Source of the DNA: a bacterium
GTDB taxonomy: Bacteria; Armatimonadota; Zipacnadia; Zipacnadales; UBA11051
NCBI GenBank assembly: GCA_030604405.1
Contig: JAUVVY010000014.1
Span: 1-64,000, forward strand
Length of the DNA: 64,000 nucleotides
Direction of reading: 5' to 3'
The notes beneath the pieces are model-generated. The model had not been told where the DNA came from. It made no database searches and worked only from the letters and a program-made list of their open reading frames with translations. Shown here one piece after another: positions 1,258 through 6,860 of the stretch. The position numbers and the translations under genes are program-made. Within the stretch, counting starts at the first letter, position 1. Every line of letters starts with the position of its first letter.

Positions 1258-3252
1258 TCACCGTCGCTCCGGCGCGAAGAGCACTCGCGTCTCGCCAGTG
1301 TCGAGGTCGAGTCGGACGATGGCTGTTCCGTCGGCATAACGGTCCCATATCACCAGATGCCCGTCATGCGTCCAGCCAAGTATCTCCCCATCCACCTTGG
1401 CGACCACGCGCAGGTCAGCTCCGTCGGGCTTTGCCGTCCAGACATAACGATCTTTTTGCTTGCCGTGCGCGTCCAGATCGTAGCTCATCACGTACATGCG
1501 GTCGCCCCGGGGAGAGATATTGATGTACGAAGGTACCTGGCCGTCCAGTTCAGCGCAGCCGATCGTCCGCACGGTCTGGGCAGTGTTCAAGTCTAATAAG
1601 TTCATTTCCTGTTCCCGAATGTCCTTACCGTAGGCGCGCTTGTTGCACCAGATATGGTTCCCGTCCGGTGTCCATCCCTCACGACTGGGCCAGAAGTCAT
1701 CGAAGTAGTGCATCCGGCCGCTCGTCAGGTCCACAAGGACCATCCGATGCGCGCGCCTGGCAGCAGGTGCCAACGGGCCTTCAGGCTTGCCGTTCATGCG
1801 CTTCTGAGCGACGAGCCACCTCCCGTCAGGCGAAATCGCTGTTCCCCACCAGACGCCACGGGCTTCCCATATTTTCTCCGCATTGCCGCCGGGCATCACT
1901 GCCTTGAATACCGTCGTCGTGCCCTGTACGCTTTCTGCGTCCAGGATTGTCCAGGAAGCGGGCGGATGTTCGGGTGGCGGCAAGCTATCGCTCAGACGCA
2001 TGTGCGGCCTTATGGCCCAATACACCACGCTTTCATCCGCTGCCCAGCCGATCACACTGTCCATTGTGAACTGCTCAGGCATCTCTGTGCGCCGCAGCTT
2101 GCCTCCTGCCATGGTCACGAAGGTGCGCTTCCCTGCAGGCCAATAGGTGCCTTTGGGCGATCCCGGAAATGCCTCTATTCCCCAGGACCATTGTCTGTAC
2201 GGCTCTGCCTTCGACAGGCGTCGCATGTGCCCCGAAGGCACTTCAACGACCCAATCCGACCTTTTGTCAGTACCGGGGAAGCACCAAGTTAAGAACAGCC
2301 TGTCGCCTGCTGGTGACCACCCCACGCCCCCGACTGGGCCGCGGGCTATCAGCCGGCGACGTTCTCCCCCGACATCCACTAGCCACAGGCCTCCCCACCC
2401 CTGATCGCGAGCCGTAACGGCGAACCAGTGACCCGTCGGATCAAGTTCCACCGAACCCAGTAGCTTCGCGGATGGCCTCCCCGCAAATAGCACAGCCAGT
2501 ATCGTGAGCGCAAAGCCCACGCCCACCAGGACGCCGTAGGCTCCGAAGGTACGACCGACGCGCCGCCAGCTTTCCATAATCGGCGTCCGCACGAACCCCC
2601 ATGCCGCTGCAACAACAGCCACGAGCACGATGAAAATGAAGGTGACAGTGGCCGCTGCTTCTGAAATATCCAGCACGCCCCAGCCCAGCCACGGGCCCCA
2701 GCGGCCAGGCAGATAGTCATAGGTCAGGTAGGACTGCAGCAGCAGCACGGCCCCGCCGAACAGGACTCCCAGCCCGGCCGCGGCCATCGGCGACCGCAGC
2801 AGTGTTGAAAGCATCAGCGTAAAACAGAACAGGCCGACGAGCGTGGCTATCTGGATGTCCTGCGGCACCGGGACCATTTCCGTATAGATGTGCCAGGCGT
2901 CGTAGCCCCGCATACTGAGAAGCCCGCAGCAGACCCCGTACATCAGGACAAGCAACAGCGCCAGCATGACAACTGTGACTGCCACTTTGACGGCCCAGAT
3001 ACGCGCCCGCGATACCGGCCAGGAGGACAGGAAGCTCAATTGCCCGTGAGTCTCGCGCGCCATGACGTTGGCGCCGCTGAGGAGCGCCGCTGCCATGCTG
3101 ATCAGCCAGCAGAAGCCCAGCGAGATGCCGACGAAGCGATCCTTGTCCCAGTTGTACCACACGTCCACAATGCCCAGGGTCATCGCCGCACACAGTATCA
3201 GTATGAATGCCGGAAAAAGCTCGCGGACTTCTTTCCAGATCAGCGCGCGCAT
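1258..3252 (-). CDS. ABC-2 type permease fused to a TolB/WD-like beta-propeller (paralogue 2)
   Basis: A 664-residue two-part protein. Residues ~1-260 carry about seven hydrophobic segments typical of ABC-2 permeases (for example LILCAAMTLGIVDV, VTVVMLALLLVLMYGV, and VLVGVGFALTILAVLFAG as the last). The remaining ~400 residues are a soluble beta-propeller with repeated blade strands such as WSPAGDRLFLTW, ISPDGRWLVAQ, WTPDGNHIWC and ISPRGDRMYV. By topology the propeller should follow the last membrane helix, perhaps outside the cytoplasm. The ATG at 3252 overlaps the upstream stop as TGATG and has GGGGAGG 5 nt before it. It is the last gene of the GntR-ATPase-permease-permease operon and a diverged paralogue of the preceding gene (MRALIWKEVRELFPA against MKALIYKEFRELLAP). 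The substrate is unknown. Confidence 0.85.
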   Translation of the reverse strand: MRALIWKEVRELFPAFILILCAAMTLGIVDVWYNWDKDRFVGISLGFCWLISMAAALLSGANVMARETHGQLSFLSSWPVSRARIWAVKVAVTVVMLALLLVLMYGVCCGLLSMRGYDAWHIYTEMVPVPQDIQIATLVGLFCFTLMLSTLLRSPMAAAGLGVLFGGAVLLLQSYLTYDYLPGRWGPWLGWGVLDISEAAATVTFIFIVLVAVVAAAWGFVRTPIMESWRRVGRTFGAYGVLVGVGFALTILAVLFAGRPSAKLLGSVELDPTGHWFAVTARDQGWGGLWLVDVGGERRRLIARGPVGGVGWSPAGDRLFLTWCFPGTDKRSDWVVEVPSGHMRRLSKAEPYRQWSWGIEAFPGSPKGTYWPAGKRTFVTMAGGKLRRTEMPEQFTMDSVIGWAADESVVYWAIRPHMRLSDSLPPPEHPPASWTILDAESVQGTTTVFKAVMPGGNAEKIWEARGVWWGTAISPDGRWLVAQKRMNGKPEGPLAPAARRAHRMVLVDLTSGRMHYFDDFWPSREGWTPDGNHIWCNKRAYGKDIREQEMNLLDLNTAQTVRTIGCAELDGQVPSYINISPRGDRMYVMSYDLDAHGKQKDRYVWTAKPDGADLRVVAKVDGEILGWTHDGHLVIWDRYADGTAIVRLDLDTGETRVLFAPERR

Positions 3253-5222
3253 CAATACCTCCCCTCTGCCTCGGAGTTCTCCGGCGGCACGGAACTGGTC
3301 AATATGTCGGTCTGTACTCCGGTATCCGGATCAATGCTGATTATCTTTCGCTTTTCGACAGTGACTATTATCTGCCCGTCCGCCGTCCAGCCGCCAATGT
3401 AAAAGTCAGTAAAGTTGGTCATCGCGGTCTCGGCGATGCGCCGCAGGCCAGATCCGTTGGCGTTAGTGACCCACACATGGATTGGCCCCCACTCAGTAAT
3501 CTCATCTCTCCGGTACTTGGTATTGTCTCGCACCACTTTGTGAGTTGTCAGCGTCACGCGCTTGCCGTCAAGAGACCAGTGACGCCAAGGCAGTGTTTCC
3601 TCGCCGCTGAAGTCGCTTGTACCGAACTCTCTGATAACGCGCAGGTGGGCAAGATCAACCACGGCGATCCGTCGCCCATTCGTCTGCATCCACACGTATT
3701 GCTCGTCTGGCGACCAAGCACGTCCTGCTGGCCATCCGGCTACCTCCAGTCTCGCGCCGCTGCCAAGGTTTTCCAACGTCGCCACCGCGTTCGCAGGTCG
3801 CGTCAACCGGGTCCCCCACACAACCCAGCGCGCGTGTGGCGAGAGCTCGACGGACTCCGCTTCTTCCGGTCCCTGGGCCACTACTCTGCCGAGCGGGCTC
3901 CCTGAAGGTAGCTCAGTCCGGGCAAGTGTAAGCCGATCATTCTTGCTGTAGGAGAAGTAGATGCCGGATTCGTCTTCCTCCCATCCGACGACTGTCGCCT
4001 TCTGAGGCAATTGCATCTCCAGCAGGACAGGCTGCGGCCTCAGACGCACGAGGCTCGCCCCGTAGGACATGTAGGTGCCCTGCGGAGAGAACTGCGGAGT
4101 CTCATCCTCCACATATTCCAATGCCGGCAGCGACGTTGTTTTGCCGTCGGCTACGTCAATCAGCCAATCCCACTGGAGATAAGTGCGCGGCAGGAAGTGG
4201 AAATCGGCGTCGCGGTCGCCCCAGGATACGAACACCCTCTTGCTGTCCGGCAGCCACACAGCGAACTCGACCGGCTGGCGCGCAAGACATTTCAGCTCAC
4301 TGCCATCAGGCCTCATTCGCCACAGGCGACGAGGCGGACGGTAACTGCGATAGAAGGCCCGATGGTCGTAGAACATTACCCATTCGCCGTCCGGGCTTAC
4401 CTCGGCGCAGGCCCCCCAGCCGACGTCTTCGGGCCCCGGCTCTCCGAGACAGCGCACCCCGACGAAGAACGCCGGGATGATGGCCAGGCACAGGATTGCG
4501 CCGGCTATTGTGGTGCGCCACAGCCGCTTGCTGTAGGCTAAGGGCAGGGAGGCGATGTAGCCATATCCTGACGCCACCAGCAGGCCAAGCCCGAGTATCG
4601 TCGCCAGTATTGCCGGCGTGGAGAATGAAGGCGTATTGTAGAAGATACCCAGTTGCGGCCCGAAGAAGCGCGGCAGCACGTCGGCGGCCAAAAACATCCA
4701 GAACAGGAAAAGCAGCAGCGCCGCCAGTAGCCCCACCCCGGCGGCTTCAAAAGGATTACGCCGCGTTCCGGAGAGGCAGAAGCCCAGGCAGAATACTAAG
4801 AACGTAGTTGCTGCGTGCAGCAATAGCCTCGAGGTTCCTAACTCGGGCAACGGCCGACTGAACGCACGCGCCCCTTCAGGCTCAGTGGCAAATGCCGCCG
4901 TGTAGAGAAGCAGATACACTAGAGCCAACATCAGTAGCCCTGTGCATAATTTTGCCGCCCAGATCGCGCCCCGGGATACCGGAAACGAACCTTGAAATGC
5001 CTCGGACCGGCGGCCGCGTTCATGCGCCAGAGTGTGGGATCCGGCCACCAGCCCCAGCAGCGGCGCGCCGAGCATGAAGAACACACCCGCAAGCACGCGT
5101 TCCTGATCATCAACCAACGGACCCCACAAATACTCCACAAGCAGCAACACCGACGCCACCAAGACCACCACCAGCGCCGGCGCCAGCAGTTCGCGGAATT
5201 CCTTGTAGATGAGCGCCTTCAT
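3252..5222 (-). CDS. ABC-2 type permease fused to a TolB/WD-like beta-propeller (paralogue 1)
   Basis: A 656-residue protein. The N-terminal ~255 residues form the membrane part, beginning LLAPALVVVLVASVLLLVEY and ending AGAILCLAIIPAFFVGV. A ~400-residue propeller follows, with blades VSPDGEWVMFY, LPDSKRVFVSWGD, FSPQGTYMSYG, LSPHARWVVWG, WSPDEQYVWMQ, WSLDGKRVTLTT and WTADGQIIVTV. ABC-2 permeases normally have ~250-400 residues, so the propeller is a whole added domain. Its ATG overlaps the ATPase stop by four bases (ATGA), which suggests translational coupling. With paralogue 2 it probably makes a heterodimeric membrane part for the ATPase. The propeller might bind a substrate, a peptide or the partner propeller; this is inference. 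Confidence 0.87.
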   Translation of the reverse strand: MKALIYKEFRELLAPALVVVLVASVLLLVEYLWGPLVDDQERVLAGVFFMLGAPLLGLVAGSHTLAHERGRRSEAFQGSFPVSRGAIWAAKLCTGLLMLALVYLLLYTAAFATEPEGARAFSRPLPELGTSRLLLHAATTFLVFCLGFCLSGTRRNPFEAAGVGLLAALLLFLFWMFLAADVLPRFFGPQLGIFYNTPSFSTPAILATILGLGLLVASGYGYIASLPLAYSKRLWRTTIAGAILCLAIIPAFFVGVRCLGEPGPEDVGWGACAEVSPDGEWVMFYDHRAFYRSYRPPRRLWRMRPDGSELKCLARQPVEFAVWLPDSKRVFVSWGDRDADFHFLPRTYLQWDWLIDVADGKTTSLPALEYVEDETPQFSPQGTYMSYGASLVRLRPQPVLLEMQLPQKATVVGWEEDESGIYFSYSKNDRLTLARTELPSGSPLGRVVAQGPEEAESVELSPHARWVVWGTRLTRPANAVATLENLGSGARLEVAGWPAGRAWSPDEQYVWMQTNGRRIAVVDLAHLRVIREFGTSDFSGEETLPWRHWSLDGKRVTLTTHKVVRDNTKYRRDEITEWGPIHVWVTNANGSGLRRIAETAMTNFTDFYIGGWTADGQIIVTVEKRKIISIDPDTGVQTDILTSSVPPENSEAEGRY

Positions 5223-6127
5223 GCCGTTCGCCCTTCGGCTACTGCTGCTTGGGGCCGCACGTATGCCACGAAGATGTCCTCCAGGCTGCAGTCCTCGACC
5301 TTGATATCGGTCGCGCCTGCCGCCTGCAGCTTGTGCAGCTTCCCATCATCGAAATCGGCCCAGATGATGGCGCGCTGGCGGCCCTCGCCCTCCTGCTGCA
5401 AGATGTCGCCATCCTCGATGACGACCGCCTTGTCAGGGAAGGTCGCAACCACGCGCTTGACCGAGGTCTTTAGCTCCTCCAGCGGCTTCTGCACGATGAG
5501 CTTGCCCTCGTGCAGGATGCCGACCCAGTCGGCCACGCGCTCGACATCGTCAATGATGTGCGAGGAGAAGAACACGGTGGTGCCGGCTTCCTGCAGGATG
5601 CCGACGATGCTTTCCATGAACTCGCGCCGCACTACGGCGTCGAGGCCGGCGGTGGGATCATCCAGGATGACCAGCACCGGCCGCGGGGCCAGTGCCATCG
5701 TCAGCGCCATCTTGCCCTGCATGCCGCGCGAAAGCTGTCCGATGCGCCGGTCGCCTGGCAGTTCAAAGCGCGCCCGCAGATGCTCGGCAAATTCCTGGTC
5801 CCAGAAGGGGTGTATATTGGCGCCGAACCACAGCATCTCCCGCACCCGCATCCAGTCATACATCTGCACGCGCTCCGGCACATACGACGCGGCGCGCTTC
5901 AGCGCCACATCCTGGCGCAGGGGATCGAAACCCAGGACCGACATTTCCCCGGCGGTCGGCTGGATGAAGCCCATCAGCATCTGGATGGTGGTGGTCTTGC
6001 CGGCACCGTTGAGGCCCAGGTAGCCATAGACCGCCCCTTTCGGCACCTGCAGGTCAACGCTGTCAACCGCCACCAGGCTCCCGAAGCGCCTGGTAAGTCC
6101 GCTGGTTTCTATGGCAAGCTCACTCAT
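5219..6127 (-). CDS. ABC transporter ATP-binding protein (ABC-2/YtrB-BcrA type)
   Basis: A 302-residue ATPase with Walker A GLNGAGKTT at ~40, signature LSRGMQGK at ~134, and Walker B VLVILDDPTAGLD at ~160. It also has the H-loop SSHIID and the ~80-residue C-terminal extension usual in BcrA/YtrB-like subunits. It should energise the two propeller-fused permeases from the cytoplasmic face. The ATG at 6127 overlaps the end of the regulator gene by 8 nt; GAGGTG lies 7 nt upstream, favouring it over the adjacent GTG at 6130. Co-transcription with a GntR repressor is typical of export or antibiotic-sensing ABC-2 systems. Confidence 0.93.
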   Translation of the reverse strand: MSELAIETSGLTRRFGSLVAVDSVDLQVPKGAVYGYLGLNGAGKTTTIQMLMGFIQPTAGEMSVLGFDPLRQDVALKRAASYVPERVQMYDWMRVREMLWFGANIHPFWDQEFAEHLRARFELPGDRRIGQLSRGMQGKMALTMALAPRPVLVILDDPTAGLDAVVRREFMESIVGILQEAGTTVFFSSHIIDDVERVADWVGILHEGKLIVQKPLEELKTSVKRVVATFPDKAVVIEDGDILQQEGEGRQRAIIWADFDDGKLHKLQAAGATDIKVEDCSLEDIFVAYVRPQAAVAEGRTA

Positions 6128-6536
6128 CACCGTTCACCTCTGGATTGGTGTCTGCTTGCTGGCTCATTTTGTCCATAACCTCGGCGACCAGAGCAAGCAG
6201 CTCGTCTCTTTCGATTTGCAGGCTGCGGGCCGTGGCCGCGATTCTGTCGAGCATCTGCTTGACCATCCGGCGACTCTCGGCCTGGCTGATTGCCTTGGCA
6301 TCGGGTGACACAAAGGTGCCGCTGCCCTGGCGGGAGGTGAGCAGCCCTTCGCTCTGGAGCTCACGGTAGGCGCGGGCTACGGTGTTGAGGTTGATGCGTA
6401 ATTGTGTGGCGAGGTCGCGGACGGTGGGGACTTGCTCGCCGGGCTTGATAGCGCCGCTGGCAACAGCCAGGCGCATTTGCTCTTTTATCTGCACGTACAG
6501 CGGGGTACTGCTTTTGGGGTCCACGGAAATATACAT
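6120..6536 (-). CDS. GntR-family transcriptional regulator, YtrA subfamily
   Basis: A 138-residue repressor. The N-terminal winged helix (~5-75) shows the family pattern SSTPLYVQIKEQMRLAVASG, PGEQVPTVRDLA, NLNTVARAYRELQSEG and SRQGSGTFV. A short C-terminal helical dimerisation segment (~85-125) takes the place of a ligand-binding domain, as in YtrA. YtrA-type proteins usually repress the ABC operon they head. The ATG at 6536 is preferred over the in-frame ATG at 6557: the family consensus begins at ISVDPKSSTPLY, and the 6557 codon lies inside the promoter. There is no Shine-Dalgarno; the predicted transcript start is only ~3-4 nt upstream, so the mRNA may be leaderless. Confidence 0.93.
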   Translation of the reverse strand: MYISVDPKSSTPLYVQIKEQMRLAVASGAIKPGEQVPTVRDLATQLRINLNTVARAYRELQSEGLLTSRQGSGTFVSPDAKAISQAESRRMVKQMLDRIAATARSLQIERDELLALVAEVMDKMSQQADTNPEVNGDE

Positions 6537-6573
6537 TGTACTAGTATTATAGTACAATTATCCGCGTTGTCAA
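6535..6573 (-). promoter_or_regulatory. GntR operon promoter with overlapping palindromic operator
   Basis: Read on the minus strand, TTGACA (6573-6568), a 16-nt spacer and TATAAT (6551-6546) match both sigma-70 consensus hexamers. A perfect inverted repeat with 9-bp arms, ATTGTACTA (6535-6543) and TAGTACAAT (6550-6558) on the plus strand, covers the -10 box and reaches the start codon. This is the size and place expected for a YtrA-type autoregulatory operator. The distance from -10 to ATG leaves only a few bases of leader. Confidence 0.85.
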
Positions 6574-6597: not shown

Positions 6598-6643
6598 TGT
6601 GAGCAGACAAATGGGCGCGAGGTCTACGTGATCGTGGCTTTGC
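6598..6643 (+). repeat. 46-bp direct repeat, left copy
   Basis: It matches 6861-6906 at 43 of 46 positions. The pair brackets the triple-hairpin module at 6684-6820. It may be a duplication made when the intervening block inserted, or part of a larger repeat unit. Confidence 0.85.
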
Positions 6644-6683
6644 CAACATGCTCCTCCCAACGGCAACGGCGACAGACAATGCC

Positions 6684-6820
6684 GTTGTAGGGGCGTGATT
6701 TATCACGCCCTCCACACCGTTCCTGAGTGGGCCTTGTTGTAGGGCGCGGGCTTGTACCGCGCCGGCCCTACTCCCTCCACGCTCTCGCTGAGTGGGCGCA
6801 ATGAATTGCGCCCCTACAAC
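6684..6820 (+). mobile_element. 137-bp triple-hairpin module (copy 1)
   Basis: It consists of three palindromes in fixed order: GGGGCGTGATTTATCACGCCC, then GGGCGCGGGCTTGTACCGCGCC, then GGGCGCAATGAATTGCGCCCC (each about 20-22 bp). It begins GTTGTAGGGGCG and ends CGCCCCTACAAC, which are exact 12-bp terminal inverted repeats. The reverse complement of 32484-32620 has the same 137-bp length and agrees at about 124 positions. The differences cluster in the two linkers, while the stems are conserved. There is no coding capacity, so this looks like a non-autonomous, MITE- or REP-like element. Confidence 0.8.
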
Positions 6821-6860
6821 AACCTCAGAACCACAAGGTGAGTAGTTGCGATTCATTCAT

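Follow-up and report, generated by a model that had tools for sequence, protein, structure and literature searches.

ABC-2 exporters rank with the commonest transporters of bacteria, and the majority are taken as bare six-helix permeases working with an ATPase. In the Bacillus subtilis ytrGABCDEF and Staphylococcus aureus pmtRABCD operons, a GntR-family gene comes first, an ATPase is encoded together with a permease pair, and control is exerted at the operon's own promoter; no fused propeller is described in the papers compared. The original prediction regarded YtrA-type systems as known exporters, which is too strong a statement, for both an import role and non-transport roles have been argued for B. 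subtilis Ytr (PMC8060467, PMC12772383). In NosDFY, the transporter NosFY contributes to formation of the CuZ site together with NosD, an accessory protein separate from it (PMC7558416).

Here, we describe an operon of the YtrA type in which both permeases are fused to a C-terminal beta-propeller. The window, that is, the whole stretch of 64,000 nucleotides analysed, comes from a member of Zipacnadia, an Armatimonadota class described from marine sediment (PMC10290634). At positions 1258-6536 it carries on the minus strand four uninterrupted open reading frames in the order GntR, ATPase, permease A and permease B, with the following features:

6546..6573, minus strand: sigma-70-like promoter, read from the sequence (TTGACA at 6573-6568, 16-nt spacer, TATAAT at 6551-6546)
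6536..6557, minus strand: candidate repressor operator, the 22-bp inverted repeat TTGTACTATAATACTAGTACAA, overlying the -10 box and touching the GntR ATG
6120..6536, minus strand: GntR-family repressor, YtrA-like, 138 aa (Pfam GntR, 2.9e-18)
5219..6127, minus strand: ABC ATPase, 302 aa (Pfam ABC_tran, 1.5e-22, and motifs)
3252..5222, minus strand: permease-propeller A, 656 aa
4443..5222, minus strand: membrane half of permease A, residues 1-260, 7 helices (Pfam ABC2_membrane_2, 8.7e-7, above cut-off)
3255..4442, minus strand: C-terminal beta-propeller of permease A, residues 261-656 (AlphaFold, Foldseek)
1258..3252, minus strand: permease-propeller B, 664 aa
2479..3252, minus strand: membrane half of permease B, residues 1-258, 7 helices (Pfam ABC2_membrane_4, 0.0026, sub-threshold; AlphaFold)
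1261..2478, minus strand: C-terminal beta-propeller of permease B, residues 259-664 (AlphaFold, Foldseek)

With a short GntR repressor as its first gene, and an ABC ATPase and two ABC-2 permeases in one operon, the fusion system is a variant of the YtrA-type ABC-2 systems and not a new category. Among NCBIfam models the GntR protein matched Rv1152 (1.5e-23) and PmtR (3.9e-20), both under the cut-offs of the models. Unlike ytr, the operon has no YtrE/YtrF-like genes, and neither a fifth gene nor a separate NosD partner was found in it. The junction overlaps of 8, 4 (ATGA) and 1 nt (TGATG) were reproduced with ATG starts assumed, and such an overlapping operon supports the earlier claim that the four genes are co-expressed. 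It is the sole copy found in the 96-contig genome assembly; its neighbours are a TIM-barrel isomerase-like and an ornithine-cyclodeaminase-like gene, and no neighbour conserved across relatives names a substrate.

The promoter layout ahead of the GntR gene recurs in relatives, and repeats resembling TTGTACTATAATACTAGTACAA lie at the equivalent place in L016, L019, L020 and L015/L056. A site of this type is single in the whole genome, allowing up to 3 mismatches, and the repeat did not occur in 100 shuffles of the window. With the repeat overlying the -10 box and abutting the GntR ATG, the operon transcript is probably leaderless. YtrA regulators usually repress their own expression (PMC6746942), from which we infer, by analogy, that the operon is repressed by its own GntR protein at the candidate operator. 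An outward sensor or receptor that gates export, the role proposed earlier, is one candidate among several. Having its own repressor and just one operator-like site in the genome, the operon would also suit propellers acting as sensors, a ligand on the outside altering the permease and then, via the ATPase, the repressor, as in sensing transporters of the BceAB type; along the same line, the B. subtilis ytr operon responds to lipid II cycle inhibitors (PMC12772383). Such signalling is nevertheless unlikely, since the operon has no histidine kinase or other relay and YtrA proteins, which repress by binding DNA, are not known to contact the transporter. Upstream of the operon, at window positions 6640-6860, there are short G+C-rich palindromes (e.g. 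GGGCGCAATTCATTGCGCCC) that look like dispersed hairpin repeats.

Permeases A and B are homologous over their full length (25% identity, 3e-33). Each has seven hydrophobic segments by hydropathy, and in the AlphaFold models seven long helices, located in permease A at residues 2-33, 40-69, 84-113, 131-151, 157-191, 201-224 and 230-259, are followed by 30-31 strands. The unfused partner permeases in G101 (L058) and G398 (L109) have six helices, whose positions match helices 1-6 of the fused proteins; helix 7 thus arrives together with the C-terminal domain. Taking the N-terminus as inside, the count of Lys+Arg per segment is 2.7, 3.7, 0.9 and 3.9 for the inside segments and 1.6, 1.2 and 1.2 for the outside ones. 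Given the seven helices, the six-helix unfused partners and this positive-inside bias, helix 7 is predicted to carry the C-terminus across the membrane and to place the propeller outside, in agreement with the outward orientation proposed earlier; a cytoplasmic propeller fits poorly with the number of helices and the distribution of charge. A tandem permease of G029 (L017 8005-9954) is without the helix 2-3 stretch normally bearing the coupling helix, being either a degenerate copy or a sequence error.

The identity of the C-terminal halves as propellers, predicted for both permeases, is supported by AlphaFold, Foldseek and a family profile. The AlphaFold models, single chains computed from alignments of 7 window and relative sequences, have a mean pLDDT of 77 for protein A as a whole, with strands throughout its C-terminal half, and of 75 for protein B (pTM 0.63). 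Searched against the PDB with Foldseek, propeller A matched S9, DPP-IV and TolB propellers (E 1e-10 to 4e-9) and propeller B the propellers of S9 peptidases (2e-11) and DPP IV (4e-10). Independently of the models, the family profile, built from the 15 fused proteins of A1, matched with its C-terminal half the propeller of an S9 peptidase (8e-15) and that of TolB (3e-7) in the PDB; A5 was set aside for the bias that comes with its stand-alone PD40 protein, L063. Six of the 15 fused proteins match PD40 singly, and the window proteins A and B, also taken singly, give no significant propeller match in Pfam or NCBIfam, the Pfam matches being sub-threshold. The profile search of each half, proposed as a check, has therefore found the propeller by way of the family profile and structure model, permease A in Pfam directly and permease B below threshold. 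The two propeller halves are truly homologous, their local alignment scoring 220 where shuffled sequences average 41 (sd 5.8, z ~31), and the strand count together with the DPP-IV match suggests about eight blades in the modelled domain.

Likeness to TolB, DPP-IV and S9 peptidases extends to both profile and fold. Unlike TolB proper, the window proteins have no N-terminal TolB domain and are not secreted soluble proteins, their N-terminal half being an ABC-2 permease; unlike S9/DPP-IV peptidases, they end after the propeller, with no alpha/beta-hydrolase domain and no match to Pfam Peptidase_S9. Some propellers are catalytic, and structures of oligogalacturonate lyase and gluconolactonase occur among the profile matches, yet an enzymatic role for the propeller, as a hydrolase, lyase or lactonase with the exported substrate as its target, is decidedly improbable: no invariant set of His, Asp or Glu runs across members, and the propellers matched best, those of S9 peptidases and TolB, are non-catalytic. 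Nor do any residues of the members stand out as catalytic or ligand-binding, the invariant columns (W, SP, G) looking structural.

The fusion is present in seven genomes of the window's order, the window's own included. A survey of 291 Armatimonadota genomes, queried with the membrane half only, to keep the propeller from contributing to any match, gave 26 matches at E ~1e-25 or better, 23 of them in frames of at least 600 codons; as fused proteins supplied most of the membrane profile and only a few candidates were scored in each genome, the fused fraction and the absences are not firm. Of the remaining three frames, that of G067 is truncated where its contig ends, and those of G006 and G116 are short; for the G116 permease, a single-frame translation of L060 runs into stop codons. 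Armatimonadota genomes with long-frame members number 13, and wherever the sequences were read, alignment, profile or motif confirmed the propeller. Outside the phylum, one of ~106 genomes matched (G313) and led to a phylum of three genomes, among which G398 encodes a GntR protein, an ATPase and two permease-propellers (L110), one of the two matching the propeller profile (6e-13) and PD40 (6e-6). The GntR-ATPase-permease order is kept in the Armatimonadota relatives and in G398. Scanning the genome collection with A2 recovered three named loci, from two Candidatus Zipacnadia genomes and one Armatimonadetes genome, and the scan with the single query P0002 yielded no match, nor did a tblastn search of plasmids. 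The fusion is hence conserved in relatives, as expected, with its recurrence in 13 Armatimonadota genomes and one of another phylum, and a frameshift or assembly join is ruled out by the identical fusion in many independent genomes. No description of an ABC-2 permease-propeller fusion was found in the open-access library searched; the co-occurrence of permease and propeller in PMC10266531 is unrelated.

Trees of the membrane half and of the propeller half both split the Zipacnadia group from a group comprising G263, G264, G067, G080 and G053, and in both trees the A and B types separate inside each group. The two trees agree broadly and not in detail, the agreement being only broad because several inner nodes have low support. 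In G006, the unfused B protein has seven helices, stops right after helix 7 and nests among fused B proteins (grouped with G017 at support 95); judging from sequence, this partner has probably lost its propeller and kept helix 7. Fusion on both subunits accordingly holds in the window and not in every pair, for one partner is unfused in G006 (seven helices) and in G101 (six helices).

Between the B protein and its G001 orthologue the permease is 85% identical and the propeller 66%, with dN/dS of ~0.39 and ~0.57, respectively, by a simple Nei-Gojobori count on this one pair; in other pairs the propeller likewise diverges faster than the permease. Constraint on the propeller is present but mild. 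The claim that both paralogues keep the fusion, and that it is therefore under selection, stands insofar as the two are 25% identical, both fused and constrained, and is tempered by the mildness of that constraint. A fast-evolving propeller fits a ligand-recognition domain, and relaxed or mild constraint could also explain it. Taken further, the higher dN/dS of the propeller in this close pair and the propeller loss on one G006 subunit would agree with a dispensable remnant of an old fusion under relaxed selection. The chance of this is very small, in view of the long frames kept in both paralogues and across many genomes, as well as in most of the best permease matches, a count that leans to fusion through the make-up of the profile.

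The reading we favour, with middling confidence, is that of a heterodimeric ABC-2 transporter encoded by a self-repressed operon, whose propellers dock a substrate or a partner on the outside. A single type of ATPase, probably dimeric, would drive two different seven-helix permease subunits, A and B, presumed to pair as a heterodimer. Helix 7, added to the usual six, would pass each C-terminus through the membrane, where the propeller folds. Side by side above the outer mouth, the two propellers might then dock a ligand, be it protein, peptide or glycan. This ligand would be either a substrate being exported, caught on its way out, or a stationary partner that receives mechanical work from ATP-driven movement. 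Two propellers are not essential to such a system, because G006 keeps the operon after the probable loss and the G101 partner is unfused.

The ATPase bears the motifs expected of its family, namely Walker A (GLNGAGKTT), the signature (LSRGM) and Walker B (ILDDP), and has Asp157 (LDDPT; window 5657-5659) where a catalytic Glu is usual. Its relatives with solved structures are ABCA lipid transporters, Rv1218c and NosF. The ABCA ATPases are the nearest among these by sequence, and large extracytoplasmic domains, predicted ones in the window proteins, are common to both systems; those of ABCA are insertions into the membrane half and lack the propeller fold. As to NosDFY, NosF is related to the window ATPase, permease A belongs to the ABC2_membrane_2 family, and both systems have a large periplasmic module. 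NosD, a beta-helix, is separate, whereas the window module is fused, is a propeller and is present on both subunits.

That NosF is among the nearest solved bacterial ATPases raises another explanation, rather unlikely and counted apart from the favoured reading, in which ATP hydrolysis moves the propellers so as to activate or load a periplasmic partner and nothing crosses the membrane, by analogy with FtsEX-EnvC and NosDFY. Replacement of the catalytic Glu by Asp, a change that often makes hydrolysis slower elsewhere among ABC proteins, would be in keeping with it and occurs in six ATPases, that of the window and those of five relatives (the window's Zipacnadia clade plus G101); in the second Armatimonadota clade (G263, G264, G067, G080 and G053), however, the ATPases retain LDEA, and the window operon has no linked partner gene. 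Also on the side of such mechanotransmission is the second phylum, where a related permease in G313, G398 and G397 bears HEAT repeats after helix 7 instead of the propeller (HEAT_2 1e-38 and 2e-30 for the two permeases tested); repeats of this kind typically serve as protein-binding scaffolds. These permeases (L102 3505-5478, L109 4795-6843 and L111 1356-3620; L102 and L109 also encode an unfused partner) are followed by a secreted protein of ~240 aa (L102 2460-3179, L109 6846-7574 and L111 3785-4510), a candidate partner or substrate of the HEAT-type permease. The N-terminal sequences of the ~240-aa proteins are similar by eye in all three genomes.

More broadly, and tentatively, there may be a class of ABC-2 systems in which helix 7 presents interchangeable outer protein-binding scaffolds (eight-bladed propellers, perhaps half-propellers, or HEAT solenoids), the transporter then acting on a partner outside and not merely moving a substrate. 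What recurs is a large, predicted outer domain fused on both subunits at the cost of one extra helix and apparently swappable, propeller for HEAT. Were this reading true, it would provide a tractable model for the transmission of ATP-driven motion to the membrane's outer face, and would point to a likely role for proteins whose present annotation says no more than permease.

Tandem permeases at L099 4671-8676, L100 1825-4498 and L101 2896-5528 have C-terminal domains of only ~180-200 residues, roughly half a propeller, some of which match the propeller profile weakly; in permeases of this type, two half-propellers could complete each other in the dimer.
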